From: an uncultured cyanobacterium
Lineage (GTDB): Bacteria > Cyanobacteriota > Cyanobacteriia > Cyanobacteriales > FACHB-T130
Direction: 5' to 3'
NCBI GenBank assembly: GCA_936920195.1
Contig: CAKZHE010000252.1
Coordinates: 1 to 64,000, forward strand
DNA length: 64,000 nucleotides
Below are positions 22,005 to 33,883 of this stretch, in pieces. The stretch's first letter is position 1, and every line of letters starts with the position of its first letter. Under the pieces are notes generated by a model. It saw only the letters and a list, made by a program, of their open reading frames with translations, ran no database searches and was not told where the DNA came from. Position numbers and translations under genes: made by a program.

Positions 22005-22146
22005 TCAATTATTCTGGCTAGCGATAAATTGCTGAATCTTGTCAATGTTGATTTTTAACTCTTCAGCAATTTGCTCAGTCGTTAGTCCCAACTTTAAGAG
22101 CAAAGGCACTGTTTTTACCTGAGTTCGATATAAGCAAATAAGCTAC
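22005..22146 (-). pseudogene. C-terminal remnant of an Rpn/DUF4351-type transposase-like protein
   Basis: On the minus strand a short open stretch reads TVPLLLKLGLTTEQIAEELK followed by INIDKIQQFIASQNN and a stop. This matches the C-terminal tail typical of cyanobacterial Rpn-family (PD-(D/E)xK, putative transposase) proteins. There is no start and no N-terminal domain; an in-frame stop lies exactly at the CAST boundary. It is a fragment outside the transposon. Confidence 0.6.
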
Positions 22147-22385
22147 TGTACATTAACGAATTAATTGTCACTTTAACAAATTAATGTCTCATTCTTTCTC
22201 CAAGCGCTGTAATCCTTTCAAAACAAGGATTACAGCGCTTTTTTACTGTTTCAACCTCTGCGTTCTTCATTCCTATTGAATTAACAAATTAAATGTCTGA
22301 CCCCCGAAAATTCACAAATTAGGTGTCACTTCCTAAAACTGCGATTTTTTTGAGCTTGATCCGAGATTAACACATTGACTGTCAC
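22147..22385. repeat. tnsB-side transposon end with TnsB-binding-like repeats
   Basis: The terminal TGTACATTAACG starts at 22147. Motif copies: 22152-22171 (ATTAACGAATTAATTGTCAC), 22172-22190, 22279-22299, 22310-22329 and 22364-22385, all sharing TTAACA-A-TT...TGTC in the same orientation. The first two are adjacent; the others are spaced out up to the tnsB promoter region, so TnsB could also repress its own operon by binding here. Confidence 0.88.
22202..22246. terminator. Strong hairpin inside the tnsB-side end
   Basis: The arms AAGCGCTGTAATCCTT and AAGGATTACAGCGCTT (16 bp, exact) are followed by TTTTTT. It lies between the second and third end repeats. It looks like an intrinsic terminator that would stop transcription entering the transposon from the flank. 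Confidence 0.75.
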
Positions 22386-22428
22386 AGCTTGATCCTTTAA
22401 AATACAAGTATGTTTTAATCAAACACTA

Positions 22429-24135
22429 ATGTTTATGTCTAAGGCCGATCTCTCGGAAACAATTTCAGATGAGAGGGACAATCTCAAAGAAGCCAATACC
22501 ATCGCCTCTGAACTTGATGACGAGGCAATGCTGAAAATGGAAGCAATCCAACGCTTGATGGAGGCAGGCGATCGCGCCACTTATTCTCAACGGCTAAAGG
22601 AAGCTGCCGAAAAGCTGGGCAAGTCGGTGCGGACGGTGCGACGGTTAGTCCATAAATGGGAAGAACAAGGGCTGTTGGGTCTGGTTCAAGCTGAACGCTC
22701 TGATAAAGGTAAGCACCGAGTTGATACCGACTGGCAAGATTTCATCCTCAAAACCTATCGGGAAGGAAATAAGGGTAGTAAACGGATAACCCCGAAACAG
22801 GTTTTCCTAAGAGTGCAAGCAAAAGCTCATGAATTAGGGGTTAAGTCTCCAAGTCACATGACTGTTTACCGCATTCTTAATCCTTTAATTGAAAAACAAG
22901 AAAAAGCTAAAAGCATTCGCAGTCCAGGGTGGCGAGGGTCGCGGTTGTCAGTTAAAACCCGCTCTGGTAAAGATTTGGCAGTAGAGTACAGCAACCAGGT
23001 GTGGCAATGCGACCACACCCGCGTCGATCTGTTGTTAGTAGATCGGCACGGCGAGATTTTAGGCCGTCCTTGGCTGACAACTGTTATTGACAGCTATTCT
23101 CGTTGCATTATCGGCATTAATTTAGGTTTTGATGCTCCCAGTTCTCAGGTAGTTGCTTTAGCATTGCGTCATGCTATTTTGCCGAAGCAGTACAGCGCAG
23201 AATATGGTCTGCATTGCGACTGGGGAACCTATGGGAAACCAGAGCATTTTTATACTGATGGTGGTAAGGATTTTCGTTCTGAACATTTGAGTCAGATTTC
23301 GGTGCAGTTAGGGTTTGTTTGCCATTTGCGCGATCGCCCCTCTGAAGGCGGTATTGTTGAGCGTCCCTTTGGCACATTGAATACAGAGGTCTTTGCCACT
23401 TTGCCGGGATATACGGGGTCAAATGTCCAAAAACGACCGGAAGATGCGGAAAAAGAAGCTTGTTTGACCCTGCGGCAGTTAGAGCAGTATTTAGTCCGTT
23501 ATATCGTTGACAACTACAACCAGCGACTTGACGCTCGTATGGGCGACCAAACAAGGTTTCAACGGTGGGAATCTGGTCTATTGGCTATGTTGCCTTTAAT
23601 CGCAGAAAGAGATTTGGATATCTGCCTGATCAAACAGTCTAGACGAACGATTCAAAGGGGCGGCTACTTGCAATTTGAGAATTTGATGTACCGAGGCGAT
23701 CGGCTGGAAGGCTATGCCGGAGAAAGTGTGGTACTGCGATTTAACCCTAGAGATATTACAACTATCTTGGTTTATCGGAATGAAGGCAGTAAGGAGGTGT
23801 TTTTAGCCCGTGCTTATGCTCAGGATTTGCAAACGGAGCAACTGTCTTTGGATGAGGCTAAAGCTAGCAGTCGCAAGATTCGGGAAGCAGGTAAGGCAGT
23901 TAGTAACCGTTCGATTTTGGCAGAGGTACGCGATCGCGAAACTTTCTTGACTCAAAAGAAAAGCAAAAAGGAACGTCAAAAATCTGAACAGATTGAAGTT
24001 CAAAAAGCTAAAAAGTCATTACAGAGTGAGTTTGAAGCTGAAGAAATAGACTTGGCAGATATTGAAAATGAACCTGAACCAGAAATGCCAGAAGTCTTTG
24101 ATTACGAACAAATGCGGGAAGATTACGGGTGGTAA
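22429..24135 (+). CDS. tnsB: TnsB, DDE transposase subunit of the V-K CAST
   Basis: 568 aa. N-terminal helix-turn-helix region (about 35-90, including GKSVRTVRRLVHKW), a second HTH region, then the RNase H-fold integrase core with the catalytic triad Asp in QCDHTRVD (about 195), Asp in YTDGGKDF (about 275) and Glu in GGIVERPFG (about 307). A Mu-type beta-barrel and a charged C-terminal tail (about 490-568) follow; in known V-K systems the tail contacts TnsC. It binds the end repeats and performs strand transfer. The stop is 3 bp before tnsC. An alternative ATG at 22435 removes two residues. Confidence 0.96.
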   Translation: MFMSKADLSETISDERDNLKEANTIASELDDEAMLKMEAIQRLMEAGDRATYSQRLKEAAEKLGKSVRTVRRLVHKWEEQGLLGLVQAERSDKGKHRVDTDWQDFILKTYREGNKGSKRITPKQVFLRVQAKAHELGVKSPSHMTVYRILNPLIEKQEKAKSIRSPGWRGSRLSVKTRSGKDLAVEYSNQVWQCDHTRVDLLLVDRHGEILGRPWLTTVIDSYSRCIIGINLGFDAPSSQVVALALRHAILPKQYSAEYGLHCDWGTYGKPEHFYTDGGKDFRSEHLSQISVQLGFVCHLRDRPSEGGIVERPFGTLNTEVFATLPGYTGSNVQKRPEDAEKEACLTLRQLEQYLVRYIVDNYNQRLDARMGDQTRFQRWESGLLAMLPLIAERDLDICLIKQSRRTIQRGGYLQFENLMYRGDRLEGYAGESVVLRFNPRDITTILVYRNEGSKEVFLARAYAQDLQTEQLSLDEAKASSRKIREAGKAVSNRSILAEVRDRETFLTQKKSKKERQKSEQIEVQKAKKSLQSEFEAEEIDLADIENEPEPEMPEVFDYEQMREDYGW

Positions 24136-24138
24136 ACC

Positions 24139-24981
24139 ATGACTAAAACCAACAATGAAGCCCAAGCAGTTGCCCAACAATTAGGGGATATTCCCCTTAA
24201 TGATGAAAGATTACAGGCAGAAATTCAACGCTTAAACCGGAAGAATTTTATCCCGCTGGAGCAGGTAAAAATGTTGCATGATTGGCTAGAAGGAAAACGC
24301 CAATCGCGGCAATCTGGTCGTGTGGTGGGAGAGTCAAGAACGGGTAAAACTATGGGTTGTGATGCCTATAGGTTGCGTCACAAACCGCACCAGGAAGCAG
24401 GAAAACCGCCGATAATACCTGTTGCTTATATTCAGATTCCCCAGGAGTGCGGCTCTAAGGAGTTGTTTGGAGTAATTATTGAGCATCTAAAGTATCAGGT
24501 AACAAAGGGAACAGTAGCAGAAATTAGAGATAGGGCGCTACGGGTTCTGAAGGGTTGTGGCGTGGAAATGCTAATTATTGATGAGGCTGACCGCTTGAAA
24601 CCCAAGACTTTTGCAGAGGTACGAGATATTTTTGACAAGTTGGAAATTGCGGTGATTTTGGTGGGTACTGACCGCTTGGATGCAGCAATTAAGCGGGATG
24701 AACAGGTATATAATCGCTTTCGGGCTTGTCATCGTTTTGGCAAGTTGTCAGGGGAAGATTTTAAACGCACTGTAGAGATTTGGGAAAAGCAGGTTTTACG
24801 GTTGTCGGTTGCTTCCAATCTTTCTAGTAAGACGATGTTGAAGACTTTGGGGGAAGCAACTGGGGGTTATGTGGGTCTGCTGGATATGATTCTCAGGGAA
24901 GCAGGGATTCGGGCTTTAAGAAAGGGATTGCAGAAGATTGATTTGGAAACGCTAAAGGAAGTATCTGGGGAGTACAAGTGA
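24139..24981 (+). CDS. tnsC: TnsC, AAA+ ATPase regulator of the V-K CAST
   Basis: 280 aa, an AAA+ ATPase of the TniB/TnsC type: Walker A GESRTGKT (about 65), Walker B MLIIDEADRLK (about 145), then a sensor-like VILVGTDRLD. In V-K systems TnsC polymerises on DNA next to the Cas12k-TniQ complex and recruits TnsB. It is the short V-K form without a long TnsA-binding tail, in keeping with the absence of tnsA. It overlaps tniQ by 4 bp (ATGA), so translation is coupled. Confidence 0.96.
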   Translation: MTKTNNEAQAVAQQLGDIPLNDERLQAEIQRLNRKNFIPLEQVKMLHDWLEGKRQSRQSGRVVGESRTGKTMGCDAYRLRHKPHQEAGKPPIIPVAYIQIPQECGSKELFGVIIEHLKYQVTKGTVAEIRDRALRVLKGCGVEMLIIDEADRLKPKTFAEVRDIFDKLEIAVILVGTDRLDAAIKRDEQVYNRFRACHRFGKLSGEDFKRTVEIWEKQVLRLSVASNLSSKTMLKTLGEATGGYVGLLDMILREAGIRALRKGLQKIDLETLKEVSGEYK

Positions 24982-25505
24982 TGGAAGCCCTAGATATCGA
25001 GCCTTGGTTATTTCGAGTAGAACCCTTTGAGGGTGAGAGTATAAGTCATTTTTTGGGGCGGTTTCGACGGGCAAATGAGTTAACGCCAACTGGGTTGGGT
25101 AAGATGGTGGGATTGGGAGGAGCGATGCCTTCGGCGGGCTTCGCCTACGCTCGTTGGGAAAAGTTTCGCTTTAATCCGCCTCCTTCTCGTCAGCAGTTGG
25201 AAGCGTTAGCGGTAGTGGTGGGGGTGGAGAGCGATCGCTTAGTCCAGATGTTACCGCCTCCTGGGGTAGGAATGAAAATGGAGCCGATTCGGTTGTGTGG
25301 GGCTTGTTACGCTCAGTCGCCTTGTCATAAGATTGAGTGGCAGTTTAAGGCGACAACGGGGTGCGATCGGCATTCCTTACGCTTGCTGTCGGAGTGTCCT
25401 AACTGTGGGGCGAGGTTTAAGGTTCCGGCGTTGTGGGTTGATGGGTGGTGTCAGCGGTGTTTTCTGGGGTTTGCAGAAATGGTGAGGTATCAGAAGATTT
25501 GTTGA
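24978..25505 (+). CDS. tniQ: TniQ, targeting adaptor of the V-K CAST
   Basis: 175 aa, the small V-K type. The N-terminal TniQ signature EPFEGESISHFLGRFRRANE is clear. Zinc-binding pairs follow in LCGACYAQSPCH and in CPNCG...CQRC. It bridges Cas12k/crRNA and the TnsC filament. It is about 8 residues longer than I recall for the ShCAST protein. The extra residues (GGAMPSAGFAYARW region) are encoded by a palindromic 29-bp dispersed repeat at 25122-25150, i.e. an in-frame repeat insertion. Confidence 0.95.
   Translation: MMEALDIEPWLFRVEPFEGESISHFLGRFRRANELTPTGLGKMVGLGGAMPSAGFAYARWEKFRFNPPPSRQQLEALAVVVGVESDRLVQMLPPPGVGMKMEPIRLCGACYAQSPCHKIEWQFKATTGCDRHSLRLLSECPNCGARFKVPALWVDGWCQRCFLGFAEMVRYQKIC
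25122..25150. repeat. Palindromic small dispersed repeat inside tniQ
   Basis: The segment GCGATGCCTTCGGCGGG continued by CTTCGCCTACGC is a well-known kind of cyanobacterial short palindromic repeat (GCGATGCC..CGGCGGGCT..GCCTACGC). Here it lies in frame within tniQ and adds about 8 residues. Confidence 0.75.
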
Positions 25506-25681
25506 AAATCACAGATATTGTCAAATCACATGAAGAACAATAAACCAAAAATCGCTAAAGCCCATAATACATAATGGTTTCAGCGATTTCACTATATTCC
25601 TAATTCAGGGATATTGGCTGGTCAGTCACATAACCGTCACATAAAACAAACTTATGCAATACAAGCTTTTCTATAAAAGAT

Positions 25682-27139
25682 TTATGCCCAAAATGGTACA
25701 TATTTAGCGTGTTTTCTGGATTTATTTTCTAAATCATAGGCTCTGATTAATCCTTCATTGATTGTATCTGCGATAATTCGTGAAGCCATAGAGTAATTTT
25801 TGTCATCAATTGCAAATCGTTTTCGCAAAGATTCATTAGTCATTTGTTCTCGACATACAAACCTTAAACAGGCGTGCTGGTAACAAGCTCTTATTCGATC
25901 GCTCTTATCCATATCTTTTAGTTCTCTATAAGTAAATAAGAGAACTTCAGTATGTTTACCATTGACGTTAAATTCTGGAGCAGGTAATTGAAAAACTTCT
26001 ACTGAATGAATTACTTTATCTATACCGCTACCACGTTCTTCACAAATATTAATTCTTCTCATAAAAGCAGCTAAATTTTCATTGCGAGATTGAGGTGGTA
26101 AATCTATAAAACGCATTGTATCAACTAATGGTTCGCCAGGGTTTCTAATTTCCATTCGATCGGAAAATATCTCAATGGTAGAACTAACACCAGTCATATT
26201 AAAATCTTGATGGATTATAGCATTAGCCACTAATTCTCTAATGGCAATCTCTGGATACATTTTGATGTTTTTTCGTACTGCTTGACCAATTTGTTCATTT
26301 TGCGGCAGTTGCTCGTTAATAAATTTAATGATTTCTTCATAACTAACAGCGTAGCCTTTATCGAATACCTGTTCTCTTTGAGTAGAAATTCGATCTTTTT
26401 CTTTGTATATAATTACTCTAATCGCTTTTCTTCCTAGTTTTTCAAATTCTGTTAACTTTTTAGCAAAAAGAATTGCACCAAAATTAGTGATATCATAATA
26501 ATTACTAAGCTTTATGTTAATTAAATTTTCCGATGCCAAACGGTCTAAAATACCTTGCTTATTATCTGGAAGGTTTTGTTGTGTGAAATCGAAATAACTT
26601 GGATAATTTATTTTTGCTAAAACTTCATCTGCGCTTATATTTTCTAATGCAATTCCCTTTTCAAACGGTTGGCGAGAAAACAATGACCATAACTCTCTCT
26701 CTTTTTCTGTAAAATCTTTGAGCTTTTTTTTATAACTACCTACACGAATGTACTCAACTCCTTTAAAACTAATAGGTATATGAGCGGCTTTTGGTATCTC
26801 AAACAAAACAATATCTTTACTCTCGCAAGTAAATTCATAAATTCTAAAATCTATTCGTGGTTCAAGTTGTACGGCAAGCCAGTTTTCTAGTTCTTGGCCT
26901 TTGATTTTTTCTTGCTTCGGTTTAAATTTTGTACCTATAATATTGTGGCTTTTATCATCAATCCCCCAAATAAGGTAAGCAGTTTGCTGATTATGTAGTG
27001 TAGCAGAGTTTGACAAAGCCGACAGATATTCACCAATAAGCTCTGGATTTGTATTATCTTTTTTGAATTCAACCCATTCTGTTTCATTTGGAAGGGCTAA
27101 TAATTGTTGTAGTAACGGTATTAAATGCTTGGTTTCCAT
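25682..27139 (-). CDS. AlbA_2/Schlafen-type putative DNA- or RNA-binding protein (CAST cargo)
   Basis: 485 aa. The N-terminal AlbA_2 domain has ETEWVEFKKD and LSALSNSATL with YLIWGIDD (about 15-130). A central region with ELVANAIIHQDF, IRNPGEPL and RGSGIDKV resembles the C-terminal HATPase-like half of COG2865 proteins. A winged-helix-like tail follows. These proteins often accompany type I-like restriction modules, where their role is unclear. It is the third gene of the cargo operon, 47 bp after the specificity subunit, on the opposite strand to the transposition genes, and AT-rich. Confidence 0.82.
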   Translation of the reverse strand: METKHLIPLLQQLLALPNETEWVEFKKDNTNPELIGEYLSALSNSATLHNQQTAYLIWGIDDKSHNIIGTKFKPKQEKIKGQELENWLAVQLEPRIDFRIYEFTCESKDIVLFEIPKAAHIPISFKGVEYIRVGSYKKKLKDFTEKERELWSLFSRQPFEKGIALENISADEVLAKINYPSYFDFTQQNLPDNKQGILDRLASENLINIKLSNYYDITNFGAILFAKKLTEFEKLGRKAIRVIIYKEKDRISTQREQVFDKGYAVSYEEIIKFINEQLPQNEQIGQAVRKNIKMYPEIAIRELVANAIIHQDFNMTGVSSTIEIFSDRMEIRNPGEPLVDTMRFIDLPPQSRNENLAAFMRRINICEERGSGIDKVIHSVEVFQLPAPEFNVNGKHTEVLLFTYRELKDMDKSDRIRACYQHACLRFVCREQMTNESLRKRFAIDDKNYSMASRIIADTINEGLIRAYDLENKSRKHAKYVPFWA

Positions 27140-27186
27140 AACGATTTTTGCTCTCCTTTTCTGGTTTTTGTTCAGCCTGAAAATTT

Positions 27187-28641
27187 TTATACTTTGATAG
27201 AAGTGAGATTTTCAATCTGACGGATGGCCTCTCGTTCTTTCTGCCAAGCTTCATCGCGCAACGCATTAGCTTTGAGAACTAAATCTCCAATCTCGTTTCT
27301 GATAGTTGGCACAGGTAATGGGATGGGAACAGAGGCAAGCATATCAAGATCAATGTGTACAATGACCGAACCATAAGAATGTCTTGTTATAAGACAATAA
27401 CCATAATCGGAGGCAAGCCAAGTGTAAAGATAGCCAGCGTTGATATCAGATGCAGCTAGTATTCTCGTTGCGTCTTCACTAGCTGTCCAATCTGCCATAT
27501 ATTTAGGAATAATTTGTACCCGTCCAATTGTACCGGAGCGAGTTATAGCAATCATTCCTTCTTCTAACTGGATTTCAGGTAAATCTTTAGTATGAGCGCC
27601 TTTTGCTAATCGCTTGACATCTATGGGATCGATTTGAAAAATCTGCTTGCTACTAAGCATCGGAATTCCACCACGAGGAACATACGTTCGTTCGCGGAAT
27701 TTGGTAATTGCTCTAATTTCCTTAGTAACTCGTTCATCACCAATAGTGGTAATTTCTACTGGCAACTGCTTTAACTTCTGTTCCGCTTTAATGGCGATCG
27801 GATCGTGAAAACTTGCTTCTAAGCGTCCAGCAAGTTGAGATGCTTTAACTCTAGATGTTAAACAACCGCTATTGCTTGATGTTAATGAGTCCAAATAAGG
27901 CAGATTCAGATGTGCGTGTAAAAGCCTATCCGCTTCATCTAATAAACGATTGGCTTCATCTCTTAGTTTTCCAGCTTCACACATCAATCGTCCAATAGCA
28001 ATTCGACGCAGCGGGTGTAAATCGGGAATAACTATTCGTGTTAGGTGTTCCGGTTCAATATGGACAATAACTGAACCGTAAGTCGCTTGAAGAAGTTGGG
28101 GACGACCTAAACGACTGCGGAGAAAAGCCGCGACATAGCCAGCAGTATCAGGGTCATTGCTACGAAGACGGATAGCGTGTTCGGATAAGGCTTTTCCAGC
28201 CATTATTGCTGTTGCTAAAGCAACATTTCCTATAGTGCCAGAGCGAGAAATGAGAACATCCCACATCTCGACTAAAAACTTATTTACATTAGGTGTTAGC
28301 TTGCGACTTAGAAACCGTTCTATTTTGGGTCGCAAGCTAATAATGTCAGAACTCGATAAAAATGGTACACCCCAATCTGGACTTACTGAAGTTCGTTTAA
28401 GTCGAAATGGTTTTGCAGGCTGCTGACACAAACCTTCATTCCCACACAGAGGAACCAGAGGTAAACCACTTGCTCGTAACTTAGCAACAGCATTACGAGC
28501 CTCAATACTAAAATTAGAGGCTTCTAAGCGAACTCCAGCATCAAAAACTTCCGTTAAACGGACTGTAGTAGAAAGCTTTTCAGGCTCCGTTACCGGGGCT
28601 GAAGGGATAGGCGTTGGTTGTACATTTGTTCGTTTTACCAT
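27187..28641 (-). CDS. Restriction-modification DNA specificity subunit (HsdS/BcgI B-like; CAST cargo)
   Basis: 484 aa from the ATG that overlaps the stop of the upstream gene by 7 bp (ATGGTAA); an earlier TTG at 28665 is less likely. Two target-recognition halves are plain: SRSGTIG and TRSGTIG, and YGSVIVHI present in both. Each half is followed by a helical spacer (RLMCEAGKLRDEANRLLDEA; DEAWQKEREAIRQI). Two TRDs predict a bipartite recognition sequence. It would direct the nuclease-methyltransferase encoded just upstream. Confidence 0.9.
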   Translation of the reverse strand: MVKRTNVQPTPIPSAPVTEPEKLSTTVRLTEVFDAGVRLEASNFSIEARNAVAKLRASGLPLVPLCGNEGLCQQPAKPFRLKRTSVSPDWGVPFLSSSDIISLRPKIERFLSRKLTPNVNKFLVEMWDVLISRSGTIGNVALATAIMAGKALSEHAIRLRSNDPDTAGYVAAFLRSRLGRPQLLQATYGSVIVHIEPEHLTRIVIPDLHPLRRIAIGRLMCEAGKLRDEANRLLDEADRLLHAHLNLPYLDSLTSSNSGCLTSRVKASQLAGRLEASFHDPIAIKAEQKLKQLPVEITTIGDERVTKEIRAITKFRERTYVPRGGIPMLSSKQIFQIDPIDVKRLAKGAHTKDLPEIQLEEGMIAITRSGTIGRVQIIPKYMADWTASEDATRILAASDINAGYLYTWLASDYGYCLITRHSYGSVIVHIDLDMLASVPIPLPVPTIRNEIGDLVLKANALRDEAWQKEREAIRQIENLTSIKV

Positions 28642-30620
28642 CTCAGCACCACCTGTTTTTTCCAATCTAGAAACTCGTCTGCCAAAACAGGCGTATCATC
28701 ATCTAAAATTTTACGACGCGGTAAAGGTCGAACTGTGGCATCACCGGAAGCAGTTCTTTCCAACAGAGGGGTAATTTCTGACTCGGCAGGTGCAAGTAGT
28801 TCTTCACCATCTTCATTCCGCTTGTAAACCTTATTACCGCGCTTATCATGCCCAATGGCATTGACTTGAGCCATAAAAATTTCATAGTCTCGAATTCCTT
28901 CAAATGCTTCTCGATTCATCTCTTCTTCTGTTTTTTTCTGAAGTATTAAAACAGAAGTTTGCGTACCGTTACGAGGCTGAAAGGTATCGGGGTGAAGATC
29001 GATCGAGGCAATTACCTGACAATGAGTTAACATCCAATAACGGACATATAGCAGACCGGGCGCACCTAAAATAGCATCTGGCAGCACAATTGCCATGCGT
29101 CCACCTGGTTTAAGAAATTGCCAACATCTTTCAATAAAAAGAATTTCCGGGGGTTGAGAACCTTGTAATACCTCAGTAGGTTCCCATCCATTTTCTGTTT
29201 CTTTCCAAACATGACCTAGTTTATATTGTCTCAGAGTTTCTGTGTCTTTTATCGGTAACTTAGAACCAAACGGAGGATTTGAAGCAACAACGTCAAAATG
29301 CGCTAAATCTTTTGAACTACGCAAAGAATCTGGATCGATATTGAGGGAATCAGCAAGCTGTCTGCGAAAAGTATCTTCCCACTGATGAGGGTGTAATAGG
29401 CTATCTTGTCGCAAAATATTTCCAGACCCGTCATTATTCATCACCATATTCATTTTGGTGGCTTTAACAAGGTCGGGATTGATATCTATTCCAAAGAAAC
29501 ATTGACCAGCAACTTCTTTAATGCGATCGCGCAAGGCTTCTAAAAAACCACTGCTACCAGGAACTCCGAGAGAGGCTTTTAGTTGATTAATCATTTCATT
29601 CATAGCGATTACTAAGAAACCCCCTGTACCGCAAGCCGGATCGAGAAACTTTTCATCTACTTGTAAATCCAGCATTTTGACTGCCATTCTTTGTACGTTT
29701 CTAGGTGTGAAAAACTCTCCGCGATCGCCCCGCAGATTTGCACCCACTAATTCTTCATAAGCTTTTCCTTTTACATCAATATCTGTATCCAGAAAGCTAT
29801 ATCGTTGAAGCTCGCCTACTATATAAGCCAAAGATCGAGCTTGAAGCTTAATAGCATCGTTAGCATCAAAAATGGTTGGATATCTTTTTTTTACAGCTTC
29901 AAAAATTTTACCAATTCGTTTAGCAACCGTTAGCCGACCATCATTGCTGGCTTTTTCCGAGGCAGTAGCATAAAACTCAAGAGGTTTAGGGACATCGCGT
30001 TCATCGTGAATTTTGCAAAAAATCACTTTCAGCAATTCAAAGAAAGCTGGCTGTTTTTGAAGTCCATCAGTAACGTAAATATGGTTATGGCAAATTTTAA
30101 ACGAGAATAAGAGGTTATCGTCTGTTGCGTGTTTTAACTGTTCTCTAGTTGGACGATTGACTTCTTCTACATTACCATTACTGGATGGGATATCATTGGG
30201 TTCTTCCCAAACAGTTTGTCCTTCTACAACTACCCTTCGGTAGACAAATTTGTACTTTCCATTTGTCCACATTCCCCATTCAGCATTTGGACAAACAGAC
30301 ATATAAGACTTAAGTTGCTCTACACCATCTTTACGATCTGATGGCTCAATAGAGTCTCGCTTACATTCGATTACGATCCAAGCATTATCTTGGGTATGTT
30401 CGTCACCCTCACGAAAAATAATGAGGTCAGCACGACCACGTTTACTAAAAACTTTTACAGGAAACTCTACGGCAATTTGTTTAAAATTGTAGGCCAGTTC
30501 CAAGACAAGACGACGCTCAATATTTTGACGAACATATTCTTCTGGCGTATCATTACGAATTTTTTGGTCAATGAAGTCGCAGATTTTACCATCTGGGATA
30601 GTCATCAGTATCTTGGACAT
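28635..30620 (-). CDS. Nuclease-N6-adenine methyltransferase fusion, BcgI A-like (CAST cargo)
   Basis: 661 aa. An N-terminal HSDR_N-type domain carries a PD-(D/E)xK motif: Asp65 in GRADLIIF, Glu85 and Lys87 in VIECKRD. A helical region precedes an N6-MTase core with motif I DPACGTGGFL (about 330) and motif IV NPPFG (about 448). The fusion plus a separate two-TRD subunit, with no hsdR helicase gene present, resembles type IIB enzymes such as BcgI, which cut on both sides of a bipartite site. It could equally be a modification-only module if the nuclease site is inactive. Confidence 0.88.
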   Translation of the reverse strand: MSKILMTIPDGKICDFIDQKIRNDTPEEYVRQNIERRLVLELAYNFKQIAVEFPVKVFSKRGRADLIIFREGDEHTQDNAWIVIECKRDSIEPSDRKDGVEQLKSYMSVCPNAEWGMWTNGKYKFVYRRVVVEGQTVWEEPNDIPSSNGNVEEVNRPTREQLKHATDDNLLFSFKICHNHIYVTDGLQKQPAFFELLKVIFCKIHDERDVPKPLEFYATASEKASNDGRLTVAKRIGKIFEAVKKRYPTIFDANDAIKLQARSLAYIVGELQRYSFLDTDIDVKGKAYEELVGANLRGDRGEFFTPRNVQRMAVKMLDLQVDEKFLDPACGTGGFLVIAMNEMINQLKASLGVPGSSGFLEALRDRIKEVAGQCFFGIDINPDLVKATKMNMVMNNDGSGNILRQDSLLHPHQWEDTFRRQLADSLNIDPDSLRSSKDLAHFDVVASNPPFGSKLPIKDTETLRQYKLGHVWKETENGWEPTEVLQGSQPPEILFIERCWQFLKPGGRMAIVLPDAILGAPGLLYVRYWMLTHCQVIASIDLHPDTFQPRNGTQTSVLILQKKTEEEMNREAFEGIRDYEIFMAQVNAIGHDKRGNKVYKRNEDGEELLAPAESEITPLLERTASGDATVRPLPRRKILDDDTPVLADEFLDWKKQVVLRW

Positions 30621-30718
30621 TTTTGTATTACCTTGACTTTTTGATGCGAAACAGATTTTGTTTTAATACCAAAAAGGTGCTAAGACACATTTTGGAGCGA
30701 TCGCCTCTTTTTCCGCAC

Positions 30719-31162
30719 TCAGGCACATTTCCCCCAGTCTTTCAACCTCACCTCTAACTGCTGATGAATAACATCTAACCATACTGGCACAACAGGCAAC
30801 CCCTCTGCCCAAAGTGCGATCGCCTTTGAGCTATCAAACTCAACTAAATCAAAAGATTGCTCAGTAGGATGGCGGTACAGCATTAACCGGACTCTTTGGG
30901 ATGGGCTAAAAAACTCCGGTTCCCTTTCCTTCAAAGTCTTCAGCGTTTCCCTCGCCAACTCAAAACTCAACCCCACAGACAGCCAATAGGCGATCGCTGC
31001 CAGTTCTACCAAATTAGACCGCGAATAGTAAATACTCCGTCCCGTCCCCGTTTCCGTAATTACAGGGACAACAACCCCACTCTCTCGCCAATACTGCAAC
31101 TGGCGTAGGGAACAGCCTGTAATTTCTGCCGCTTGCTTGGTGGTAAAAAAAGTCTCTTGCAT
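30719..31162 (-). CDS. MerR-type regulator of the CAST (CvkR-like)
   Basis: 147 aa. The N-terminal MerR winged helix (TTKQAAEITGCSLRQLQYWR, then GRSIYYSRSNLVELAAIAYWL) is followed by a helical segment and a short C-terminal domain. There is no Cys cluster for metal sensing. It is encoded divergently from cas12k with a 68-bp shared promoter region. CvkR proteins in this position repress cas12k and the tracrRNA/crRNA in characterised V-K systems, which is the likely role here. Confidence 0.9.
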   Translation of the reverse strand: MQETFFTTKQAAEITGCSLRQLQYWRESGVVVPVITETGTGRSIYYSRSNLVELAAIAYWLSVGLSFELARETLKTLKEREPEFFSPSQRVRLMLYRHPTEQSFDLVEFDSSKAIALWAEGLPVVPVWLDVIHQQLEVRLKDWGKCA

Positions 31163-31189
31163 AAAATTTATTTTACAGAAAGCTCAGTC

Positions 31190-31224
31190 TATACATCTGT
31201 GTTAGTATTAAACATAAATGTATA
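31190..31224. promoter_or_regulatory. Candidate CvkR operator in the cvkR-cas12k divergent promoter
   Basis: TATACAT (31190) and ATGTATA (31218) form an inverted repeat in the 68-bp gap. Inside it ACAT-N2-ATGT (31212-31221) is a tighter dyad. ACAT/ATGT half-sites are those reported for CvkR (from memory). The site lies just before the cas12k ATG, where binding would block transcription. Confidence 0.55.
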
Positions 31225-31230
31225 AAGCCG

Positions 31231-33147
31231 ATGAGCCAAATCACGATCCAGTGCCGCCTAGTCGCCTCAGAATCAACCCGCCGCCAACTTTGGGAGTTGA
31301 TGGCAGATAAAAACACGCCCCTAATTAACGAATTGTTACAACAAGTAGGCCAACATCCCGATTTCCTCACCTGGCGGCAAAAAGGCAAGCTTCCCAGTAC
31401 AGTAGTTAGCCAACTGTGCCAACCCCTCAAAACCGATCCTCGTTTTGCTGGACAGCCCAGCCGTTTTTATCTGTCAGCCATTCATGCCGTAGACTATATC
31501 TATAAATCTTGGTTAGCCATCCAAAAACGCTTACAGCAGAAGCTTGAAGGGAAAACCCACTGGCTAGAAATATTTAAAAGCGATGCTAAATTAGTCGAGA
31601 CTAGCGATCGCAGCTTAGAGGCTATTCGCATCAAAGCCGCTGAAATTTTGGCTCAAGCTACATCTTCCCCTGACTCAAAATCCACTCTACCCAAACAGAA
31701 AAACAGCAAGAAGGCTAAAAAAACCGTATCCTCAGACTCAAGCCGCCGCCTTTCTACTACTCTATTCCAGGTTTACCGAGAAACAGAAGACATCCTGACT
31801 CGCAGCGCTATTAGTTACTTACTCAAAAATGGATGTCAAATCAGCGAACAAGAAGAAAACCCCGAAAAATTTGCTCTGCGTCGTCGTAAACTAGAAATCC
31901 AAATCCAACGGATTAGCGATCAATTAGATTCTCGAATGCCCAAAGGTCGAGACTTGACCAATGAGAAATGGTTAGAAGCCTTAACACTTGCCACAACTAC
32001 AGATCCTCAAGACAATGCCGAAGCTAAACGCTGGCAAGATATTCTTTTAACTCGTTTCAGTTGTCTACCCTTCCCTCTGATCTATGAAACCAATGAAGAT
32101 ATGGTTTGGTCAAAAAACCAAAAAGGTCGCCTTTCTCTTCATTTCAATGGTTTAAGAGACTTGACTTTTGACATATATTGCGATCGATGTCAGCTTCACT
32201 GGTTCCAACGCTTCCTAGAAGACCAGCAAACCAAACGCAGCCACAAGAACCAACATTCTAGTAGCTTATTTACCTTGCGAAGCGGACATTTAGCTTGGCA
32301 ACAAGGTGAAGGCAAAGGAGAGCCTTGGAATGTCCACCATTTAACTCTATACTGCTGTATAGATACGCGATTATGGACTGCCGAAGGAACAGAACAGGTA
32401 CGTCGAGAAAAAGCTGATGAAATTACCAAATTCATCACTAAAATGAAAGAAAAAAGTAACCTCAGCGAAACGCAACAAGCCTTCATTAACCGCAAAGAAT
32501 CTACCCTCAAGCGCATCAACAATCCTTTTCAGCGTCCCAGTCAGCCCCTTTATCAAGGACAGCCTCATATTATAGTTGGAGTTAGCTTAGGCTTAGAAAA
32601 GCCTGCGACAGTAGCCGTAATAGATGTCATTAAAAATCAAGTTCTTACCTATCGCAATATTCGGCAACTACTTGGGGACAATTACAACTTACTCAATCGC
32701 CAGCGCCAGCAAAAGCAACGCTCATCTCGCCACCGCCATCAAGCTCAAAAACTTGCTGCTCCAAATGAATTTGGCGATTCAGAATTGGGACAATATATAG
32801 ATAGACTGCTAGCCAAAGCTATAGTAGATATTACTCAAACTTACCAGGCTGGCAGTATCGTCTTACCCAAGTTAAGTGATATCAGAGAAATTATCCAAGC
32901 CGAAATTCAAACGAAAGCTGAAAAAAAGTGTCCTGGCTATTTAGAAGGCCAGCAAAAATATGCCAAAGAGTATCGAGTTAACATTCATCAGTGGAGTTAT
33001 GGTAGACTAATTGATAGCATTAAAACTCAATCAGCCAAAAACAACATTATCATTGAAGAGGGAAAGCAACCGATTATCGGCAATGCCCAAGAGCAAGCAA
33101 GAGAATTAGCAATCTCAGCTTATCAATCTCGCCTCAAAAAAGGTTGA
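31231..33147 (+). CDS. cas12k: Cas12k, nuclease-dead effector of the V-K CAST
   Basis: 638 aa, the normal size. It begins MSQITIQCRLVASESTRRQL, the Cas12k opening. The RuvC-I equivalent is IIVGVSLGLEKPATVAVIDV (about 447), where the usual catalytic Asp of GIDxG is Ser. The basic RQQKQRSSRHRHQAQ helix and the later LPKLSDIREIIQAEIQ block are typical. It binds the tracrRNA/crRNA and the GTN PAM and marks the target for TnsC/TniQ without cutting. The stop overlaps the tracrRNA promoter. Confidence 0.97.
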   Translation: MSQITIQCRLVASESTRRQLWELMADKNTPLINELLQQVGQHPDFLTWRQKGKLPSTVVSQLCQPLKTDPRFAGQPSRFYLSAIHAVDYIYKSWLAIQKRLQQKLEGKTHWLEIFKSDAKLVETSDRSLEAIRIKAAEILAQATSSPDSKSTLPKQKNSKKAKKTVSSDSSRRLSTTLFQVYRETEDILTRSAISYLLKNGCQISEQEENPEKFALRRRKLEIQIQRISDQLDSRMPKGRDLTNEKWLEALTLATTTDPQDNAEAKRWQDILLTRFSCLPFPLIYETNEDMVWSKNQKGRLSLHFNGLRDLTFDIYCDRCQLHWFQRFLEDQQTKRSHKNQHSSSLFTLRSGHLAWQQGEGKGEPWNVHHLTLYCCIDTRLWTAEGTEQVRREKADEITKFITKMKEKSNLSETQQAFINRKESTLKRINNPFQRPSQPLYQGQPHIIVGVSLGLEKPATVAVIDVIKNQVLTYRNIRQLLGDNYNLLNRQRQQKQRSSRHRHQAQKLAAPNEFGDSELGQYIDRLLAKAIVDITQTYQAGSIVLPKLSDIREIIQAEIQTKAEKKCPGYLEGQQKYAKEYRVNIHQWSYGRLIDSIKTQSAKNNIIIEEGKQPIIGNAQEQARELAISAYQSRLKKG

Positions 33148-33174
33148 CAAATATCTGTACCTTGACAATATAAT
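33144..33174 (+). promoter_or_regulatory. Predicted tracrRNA promoter
   Basis: TTGACA at 33144-33149 and TATAAT at 33169-33174, spaced 19 nt, immediately precede the conserved tracrRNA start. The -35 box overlaps the cas12k stop codon. Confidence 0.6.
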
Positions 33175-33177
33175 ATA

Positions 33178-33440
33178 GTTAATAGCGCCGCAGTTAATGC
33201 TCGTCAGAGTTTCTGAACTGCGTAAGTGAGGGTTAGTTTGGCGGTTGGAAGACCGTCTTGCTTTCTGACCCTGGTAGCTGCTCACCCCGATGCTGCTGTT
33301 CCTTGCGGACAGGAATAAGGTGCGCTCCCAGCAATAAGGGCGCGGGTCTACTGCTGTAGTGGCTACTGAATCACCCCCGACCAAGGGGGAACCCACTCTA
33401 TTTATTTGAGGTCTTCCCACAGGTATTAAATTTCAACGTC
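33178..33440 (+). ncRNA. V-K tracrRNA
   Basis: The sequence follows the known V-K tracrRNA almost word for word: TTAATAGCGCCGC, GAGGGTTAGTTTG, TTGCTTTCTGACCCTGGTAG, CTGCTCACCCCGATGCTGCTG, GGTGCGCTCCCAGCAATAAG, CTGCTGTAGTGGCTACTGAA and ATCACCCCCGACCAAGGGGG. Anti-repeat 1 is AACCCACT (33390-33397), exactly complementary to AGTGGGTT of the delocalized crRNA. Anti-repeat 2 is TTTCAAC (33431-33437), complementary to GTTGAAA. The 3' end is estimated. Confidence 0.95.
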
Positions 33441-33451
33441 AATCCGCGCAA

Positions 33452-33494
33452 GTTTCAAAACCTTTATTTGGTCTGGATTCGAGGGGATTGAATG
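33452..33494 (+). CRISPR. Degenerate CRISPR repeat-like sequence
   Basis: The 5' part GTTTCAAAACC and the 3' part GAGGGGATTGAATG match the two ends of V-K repeats (GTTTCAA..AACC ... AGGGG..TTGAAAG), but the middle is altered and the unit is 43 nt instead of about 37. No second matching repeat is found, so this is at best an eroded relic of the main array. Confidence 0.4.
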
Positions 33495-33559
33495 ATGAAG
33501 AAATATTACTTGTGAAAGAGGCACAAAAGGGGATGGTCAAGAGATCCGCGCATTTTAAC

Positions 33560-33593
33560 TCTAAAACCTTTGTTAACAAAGGGTTTGGGAGAG
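33560..33593. terminator. Hairpin between tracrRNA and delocalized crRNA
   Basis: The arms around CTCTAAAACCTTTGTT and AACAAAGGGTTTGGGAGAG are largely complementary around GTTAAC. There is no clear T run. It could end the tracrRNA transcript or be a processing structure before the crRNA. Confidence 0.4.
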
Positions 33594-33646
33594 TGCAGTT
33601 CCAACAGCCCTCTCCAATGGAAGCGGATGGATTAATTTATTAATAA

Positions 33647-33675
33647 GTGGGTTGAAAGCGAGTCCAGTTGTGTCC
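33647..33675 (+). CRISPR. Delocalized (homing) crRNA: half-repeat plus 17-nt tRNA-Val spacer
   Basis: GTGGGTTGAAAG (33647-33658) is the 3' end of the V-K repeat. The next 17 nt, CGAGTCCAGTTGTGTCC (33659-33675), equal the minus-strand sequence of 33811-33827 in tRNA-Val(GAC). The genomic protospacer is preceded by GTT, a valid GTN PAM; here the crRNA copy is preceded by repeat sequence, so the transposon spares itself. The following base differs (T versus A). The unit sits just inside the transposon end. Confidence 0.95.
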
Positions 33676-33681
33676 TTTAAT

Positions 33682-33766
33682 TTGACACGAATTTGGCTAA
33701 ATGAACATCCAATTTGTTACCGTGACACTAATTTGTTACCAGTGACAAGGAATCTGTTAATGTACA
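33682..33766. repeat. tRNA-side transposon end with TnsB-binding-like repeats
   Basis: Read inward from TGTACATTAAC (ending at 33766), motif copies lie at 33741-33766, 33722-33740, 33701-33721 and 33682-33699. All have the TAACAAATT...TGTCAC form seen at the other end, in inverted orientation. Confidence 0.88.
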
Positions 33767-33809
33767 CCTAAAAGCGCCACAACCCTGTACAGGAAAGGGT
33801 TTGAACTAA

Positions 33810-33883
33810 TGGACACAACTGGACTCGAACCAGTGACCCCCACGATGTCAACGTGGTGCTCTAACCAACTGAGCTATGCGTCC
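33810..33883 (-). tRNA. tRNA-Val (anticodon GAC), CAST target site
   Basis: A 74-nt cloverleaf on the minus strand. The acceptor GGACGCA pairs with TGTGTCC. The anticodon stem-loop is CCACG-TTGACAT-CGTGG, giving anticodon GAC. The TPsiC arm reads GGTTCGAGTCC. The discriminator is A and CCA is not encoded. The homing spacer of the adjacent CAST matches its TPsiC/acceptor 3' region. The gene remains intact because insertion is downstream. Confidence 0.96.

Follow-up and report, generated by a model that had tools for sequence, protein, structure and literature searches.

A type IIB-like restriction-modification pair related to MAD2 and MAD5 is carried by a type V-K CRISPR-associated transposon of a cyanobacterium

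A contig of an uncultured cyanobacterium of the FACHB-T130 lineage (CAKZHE010000252.1, assembly GCA_936920195.1) was analyzed over its first 64,000 nucleotides, which are called the window below. It contains a CRISPR-associated transposon (CAST) of type V-K, and three minus-strand genes between tniQ and a gene for a MerR-type regulator are its entire cargo (Table 1). The first two genes encode a nuclease-methyltransferase fusion protein (MT) and a specificity subunit (S), which probably form a self-sufficient restriction-modification (RM) enzyme of the type IIB kind, while the third gene, encoding a Schlafen-like protein, probably specifies a separate second-line effector. The pair belongs to a large family from which the multi-gene phage defense system MADS probably arose by the loss of a nuclease site.

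The Restriction-Modification Pair

The three open reading frames of the original prediction were all recovered at its positions, on the minus strand, with domains that were borne out by Pfam. The fusion protein of 661 amino acids contains HSDR_N_2 at residues 26-145 (6.4e-24) and N6_Mtase at 280-572 (3.4e-31), so nuclease and N6-adenine methyltransferase (MTase) indeed reside in one chain. D65 and E85-x-K87 are found at the residue numbers that had been predicted, and they are preceded by E52. In an AlphaFold2 model of the protein (50 sequences, pLDDT 83) residues 26-119 have the core order of a PD-(D/E)XK nuclease, and consecutive strands of this core carry E52, D65, and E85. The best match of the model in the PDB is the type IIB enzyme BsaXI (5.6e-28), and the superposition covers model residues 25-661 (Z 28.3, 514 residues, rmsd 8.7). 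The next entry, an HsdM, reaches Z 22.8 and covers just residues 164-660. Type I M structures align to the fusion only from about residue 147-171 onward, and among the PDB entries shown the nuclease domain is spanned by BsaXI and the type IIG enzyme DrdV alone.

The S protein of 492 amino acids matches Pfam Methylase_S (3.2e-10), and its two halves align to each other with 33% identity (E = 1e-25), in agreement with the predicted separate subunit with two target recognition domains (TRDs). Its start is probably the ATG at 28641 rather than the TTG at 28665, which corrects the earlier call, and the stop codon of the MT gene overlaps this start in ATGGTAA.

The pair thus has the features of the RM+S group of type IIB enzymes, which includes BcgI (PMC11997821). 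BcgI, BsaXI, BveI, and Hso63250II likewise combine a PD-(D/E)XK domain, a helical connector, and an N6-MTase in one chain with a separate two-TRD S subunit, have an E/D/ExK site, and lack a translocase. The catalytic residues of BsaXI are E73, D90, E105, and K107 (PMC11997821); E, D, and ExK are conserved in the window protein, the correspondence to BsaXI being established for D65/D90 only. The fusion is shorter than BsaXI (661 versus 916 amino acids), and therefore it has little room for the knob and paddle inserts of that enzyme. The type IIB assignment is made by the genes and the BsaXI fold; two-sided cutting, the trait that defines the class, is predicted here, and the comparison was made with BsaXI in place of BcgI. 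Because of the BsaXI-like fold and the residues E52, D65, and E85-C-K87, "BcgI-like" is the best reading of the pair, and the predicted type IIB layout, as opposed to a normal type I system, held up.

The Schlafen-Like Third Gene

The third gene closes the operon, 47 bp after the S gene. The AlbA_2 features seen in the original prediction correspond to SLFN_AlbA_2 at residues 19-140 (3.2e-20), and a second Pfam domain, HATPase_c_4, is present at 320-401 (1.8e-21). The model of the 485-residue protein (13 sequences, pLDDT 86) has structural matches to Schlafen N-domains at its N-terminus, to histidine kinase ATPases at about 225-405, and to winged helices at about 409-485. SLFN13, SLFN5, and SLFN14 are among these matches; the best full-length match, 3lmm, is titled merely DIP2311 protein. 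The N-box residues E302, N306, and H310 of the ATPase are invariant in 31/31 rows. Schlafen RNases that carry a fused minimal histidine kinase and winged helix-turn-helix (wHTH) domain have been described as backup effectors, linked to BREX-type loci in 1017 or more taxa (PMC12839542). The third gene shares with them the three-domain architecture and the linkage to methylase-based defense genes, but differs in having a type IIB-like pair as its neighbor and a CAST as its carrier.

Of 26 copies of the third gene from cyanobacteria and plasmids, 10 have a gene for an RM system or an anti-phage methylase within 6 kb, a count that includes blast labels (a stricter motif count gives 6/26) and the CAST G300 itself, versus 1 of 20 control windows. 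The copy in Desulfosarcina adjoins a DUF1156 anti-phage methylase, and in many other sampled contexts the gene stands alone. None of 14 copies on viral contigs has an RM gene within 4 kb; for this reason a role as an RM accessory was dropped, and the third gene is best regarded as independently mobile. An earlier count, restricted to flanks of 1.5 kb, gave 0/30, the flanks being too short to inform. In the plasmid pAFAEC of Aliarcobacter faecis (L279) a Schlafen-like gene lies inside a type I operon, in the order HsdR-HsdM-third gene-HsdS.

The protein could alternatively regulate the transcription of the cargo operon. Its C-terminal winged helix and the last position in the operon would be compatible with this, and regulators often contain HATPase and wHTH domains. 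However, E19 and E24, which are of the Schlafen catalytic type, are invariant throughout the 31 rows, the structural matches include the three Schlafen proteins named above, and the many unrelated contexts of the copies speak against a dedicated regulator of the pair, so that a regulatory instead of an effector function appears rather unlikely.

The distribution among CASTs bears on whether the pair and the Schlafen-like protein are one integrated, CAST-borne system that is held together by selection. The comparison covered 62 V-K loci, namely, 60 stretches of at most 20 kb (L137-L196, selected among the most intact entries of a longer list; cargo past 20 kb escapes), the window, and G300. A MAD2-like pair is present in two of them, the window and G300, and the third gene in the window, G300, and G087, where the G300 and G087 copies are 78-79% identical to that of the window. 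The order MerR-MT-S-third gene is the same in the window and in the G300 locus L048, and the third gene of the third CAST lies beside a type I RM system (L120), all of which would fit an integrated system. Yet the MTs of the window and G300 fall into different clades (44% identity) in spite of 79% identity between their third genes, all other close relatives of the pair that were listed have no third gene beside them, and the GC content of the third gene, 32.6%, contrasts with 40-48% in its CAST neighbors. One integrated system is accordingly improbable. The three CASTs combine one third gene with three different RM systems, and therefore either the RM part was exchanged while the third gene stayed, or the gene was gained repeatedly. 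A constant partnership is ruled out, because two CASTs are the only places where the third gene occurs with the pair, and it is otherwise found alone or beside other RM or anti-phage methylase genes; the suggestion that it regulates or extends the RM system could thus not be upheld. In the G300 CAST (L048 / L118) cas12k and tnsB are broken and the cargo genes are open.

Relatives of the Pair and the Link to MADS

Relatives of the pair are widespread. A match at 1e-20 was obtained in 53 of 388 cyanobacterial-class genomes, and a scan of GTDB genomes confirmed at least 535 relatives, of which 80 were kept (55-81% identity); these span Cyanobacteria, Pseudomonadota, Bacillota, Bacteroidota, archaea, and others. 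An S reading frame of more than 400 amino acids lies directly downstream on the same strand in 75/80, and in three pairs (L350, L352, L353) the S-like gene is short and located upstream, not downstream. Among the matches listed, the nearest is from Roseofilum acuticapitatum (81% for MT, 74% for S), and no CAST genes surround that pair within the fetched stretch. Members on viral contigs are 41-53% identical to the window MT. The common state is a stand-alone pair without a fixed third partner, and in the neighborhoods of the listed relatives S is not followed by a MAD6-like kinase on the same strand, except in the MADS-type locus L349. In one clade of close relatives (L040:10965-13051, L041-L046, L198-L202, L204-L206) S has a C-terminal extension of about 60 amino acids and is followed by a PIN-domain gene; elsewhere this extension is a small separate reading frame before the PIN gene. 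Apparently, an antitoxin has been fused to the specificity subunit in this clade. The window has neither the PIN gene nor the extension.

The best NCBIfam matches of MT and S are MAD2 (1.7e-186, 621 bits, cut-off 720) and MAD5 (321 bits, cut-off 400), to which they are homologous over the full length. Plasmids and cyanobacteria yielded MADS-type loci with MAD2 proteins of 632-1049 bits, 5 of 6 tested being above the cut-off. In contrast, the window pair stays below both curated cut-offs, has an intact nuclease tetrad, and no further mad genes (the MAD6 kinase or others) are present in the element; the scores and the lack of these genes rule out that the pair is a MADS.

The state of the nuclease site separates the two kinds of loci. 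The tetrad E52, D65, E85, and K87 is intact in all 105 distinct stand-alone relatives (112 rows), including those on viral contigs. Neither E85 nor K87 is retained in any of the 11 MADS-type loci, and E52 is replaced by D in all 10 that could be scored at this position; L054, which is missing part of its N-terminus, was scored at E85 and K87 only. In two of the 11 (L348, L351) the contig stops right after MAD2, and they were assigned by the upstream mad1 and by similarity, with no kinase visible. The scored motif residues of the MTase are intact in 116/116 proteins of both kinds. Five rows, L283 and the broken or cut genes L047, L051, L052, and L056, are outside the count, as are most weak matches of the 1e-20 genome search; 11 single-chain proteins were kept as an outgroup, and these retain D65, E85, and K87 in 11/11 and E52 in 10/11 cases. 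A strict rule has an exception in L283, a solitary MAD2-like methylase without S or kinase on a plasmid of Streptomyces sp. NBC_00637, in which the tetrad is also lost. A search of viral contigs with one MADS MAD2 as query gave no match.

In quick trees the MADS rows cluster as a single group (SH-aLRT 99), with the pairs in two further groups; these trees were calculated without bootstrap and leave the branching of the two pair clades and MADS unsettled, and the samples for trees and structures were picked by hand. Because the outgroup keeps D65, E85, and K87, a gain of the nuclease in the pairs is unlikely, and a single loss on the MADS stem is the simplest account. Since MADS falls within the family as a single clade, its probable origin is a pair of this kind that lost the nuclease. 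We lean toward a scenario in which the ancestor of MAD2, part of a stand-alone type IIB-like pair, lost its nuclease site once, kept the methylase, and passed the kill step to new partners, i.e., the kinase and others. Pairs like that of the window would then be the living, nuclease-intact form, which gained different second-line modules: on CASTs the Schlafen-like protein and, in another clade, a PIN toxin whose antitoxin is fused to S. No statement of an origin of MADS from an intact RM pair was found in the literature searched, including PMC12839542, PMC12322248, PMC12926258, and PMC11842806; the original description of MADS (Maestri 2024) was outside that search.

The opposite direction, i.e., that the pair is a remnant of MADS reduced to methylation and sensing with the third gene as effector, would agree with MAD2 and MAD5 as the nearest NCBIfam models and with a predicted nuclease being encoded after the pair. 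It is very unlikely in view of the scores below the NCBI cut-offs, in contrast to those of most tested MADS-type MAD2 proteins, the tetrad that is intact in the window and lost in every MADS-type locus, and the frequency of pairs without a fixed third partner.

The Host Genome and the Proposed Mechanism

The absence of hsdR from the locus was part of the original prediction, and an hsdR elsewhere had been named as the finding that would speak against it. The host genome is a draft of 5.70 Mb that is 95% complete, and it has no HsdR above the cut-off, a single match reaching 35.6 bits (cut-off 284.55). The other HSDR_N_2 matches are open frames of 227-486 amino acids, too short to be an HsdR, and no second S gene is present, the sole Methylase_S match being that of the window. 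A type I system with HsdR acting in trans, which the resemblance of the MTase and S domains to type I M and S and the type I genes of other V-K CASTs (e.g., L120) might suggest, is therefore ruled out for the sequenced part and extremely improbable overall, also because the MTase has a nuclease domain of its own and BsaXI as its best structural match.

According to the reading favored here, that MT and S are a type IIB-like RM enzyme in their own right, the S subunit would read a bipartite DNA site, at which the MTase domain, with its motifs and fold, is predicted to methylate adenines. On unmethylated DNA the N-terminal PD-(D/E)XK domain would cut beside the site without ATP-driven translocation, as suggested by the tetrad, which is intact and invariant, by the fold shared with BsaXI, and by the lack of an HsdR. 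BcgI is an A2B complex (PMC4027205), and the window enzyme is probably likewise (RM)2S or A2B. The pair travels as cargo of the Cas12k transposon. The third protein, a candidate Schlafen-type RNase with a histidine kinase-like ATPase and a winged helix, most likely acts as a separate second-line effector that would fire once a phage overcomes restriction. The same RM family would have given rise to the nuclease-dead MAD2 of MADS, in which the killing presumably passed to other genes.

Several observations weigh against this reading. The N-terminal profile alone matches BsaXI weakly in the PDB, with D65 aligned to the catalytic D90 (E = 0.038), and E52 aligns with E75 of BsaXI, not with the catalytic E73. 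The rmsd of the superposition is high (8.7-16 Å), which is probably due to domain shifts. As the genome is a draft, an HsdR could be encoded in the missing 5%. With respect to the third gene, 16 of the 26 cyanobacterial and plasmid copies have no RM gene within 6 kb, and the viral-contig copies described above point in the same direction. Taken together, the interpretation as a type IIB system and CAST cargo stood, while the original prediction had missed MAD2 and MAD5 as the nearest families and had drawn the third gene into the RM system.

The Transposon and Its Attachment Site

The predicted carriage on a CAST was confirmed by Cas12k, TnsB, TnsC, and TniQ of type V-K, which flank the cargo, an anchor spacer that matches a tRNA gene, and the terminal TGTACA sequences (Table 1). 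Apart from the tns genes, the RM pair, the third gene, and the genes for MerR and Cas12k, the element contains no other genes. The Cas12k transposon homes to tRNA-Val through its anchor spacer, as shown by the ends, the spacer match, and the distance: no chance match of 17/17 is expected, GGTT precedes the protospacer in the tRNA gene, and the CAST end is 62 bp from this position, which resembles a protospacer adjacent motif (PAM). The usual distance between PAM and end is 60-66 bp for V-K elements. A 5-bp target duplication was not seen at the ends (GCTAC at 22142-22146 on the left, CCTAA at 33767-33771 on the right); such duplications are common, but are not required of an old V-K insertion. 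The usual CRISPR array was not seen at 33450-33660, where a degenerate repeat and, before the anchor spacer, a truncated repeat were recognized by eye. The MerR-type gene has the position of cvkR as laid out for V-K CASTs (PMC9938897).

Table 1. Features of the V-K CAST and its attachment site in the window.
Feature	Position	Strand	Remarks
V-K CAST	22147..33766	.	terminal TGTACA to TGTACA; 11.6 kb
tnsB	22429..24135	+	PADLOC TnsB V-K 806 bits
tnsC	24139..24981	+	PADLOC TnsC V-K 341 bits
tniQ	24978..25505	+	PADLOC TniQ V-K 254 bits
Third gene, Schlafen(AlbA_2)-GHKL ATPase-winged helix protein	25682..27139	-	485 aa; GC 32.6%; E19, E24, K26 invariant in 31/31 rows
S subunit	27187..28641	-	two TRD repeats; MAD5-like (under NCBIfam cut-off); possible alternative TTG start at 28665
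MT, RM fusion	28635..30620	-	661 aa; PD-(D/E)XK domain (E52, D65, E85-C-K87), helical connector, N6-MTase (CGTG, NPPF); MAD2-like, under NCBIfam cut-off
MerR-type regulator, cvkR position	30719..31162	-	MerR_1 1.3e-15; upstream of cargo, same strand
cas12k	31231..33147	+	NF038191 972 bits
17-nt anchor spacer	33659..33675	+	identical to 33811-33827 (-) in tRNA-Val, 17/17
tRNA-Val (GAC), attachment target	33810..33883	-	

RM systems are frequent cargo of V-K CASTs, with no evidence of a mechanistic link to the CAST in the account of PMC9938897, and PMC8649781 gives them as the commonest innate defense cargo of Tn7-like elements, with RM tabulated in 947 of such elements. As in AnCAST, the RM genes of the window lie between tniQ and cvkR/cas12k, but they are a two-gene, type IIB-like system and not a type I system that contains HsdR.

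Implications

RM cargo on V-K CASTs has thus already been published, and it is the link to MADS that is the interesting part. The window element is a CAST that has two layers of candidate phage defense as its sole cargo. Its RM pair represents a large family in bacteria and archaea, the members of which are labeled "N-6 DNA methylase" in the plasmid records examined, yet resemble complete restriction enzymes. A simple annotation rule follows, namely, that the nuclease is intact without other mad genes and dead with them, and this split suggests, in a form that can be tested, how a restriction system may have turned into a multi-gene defense system.

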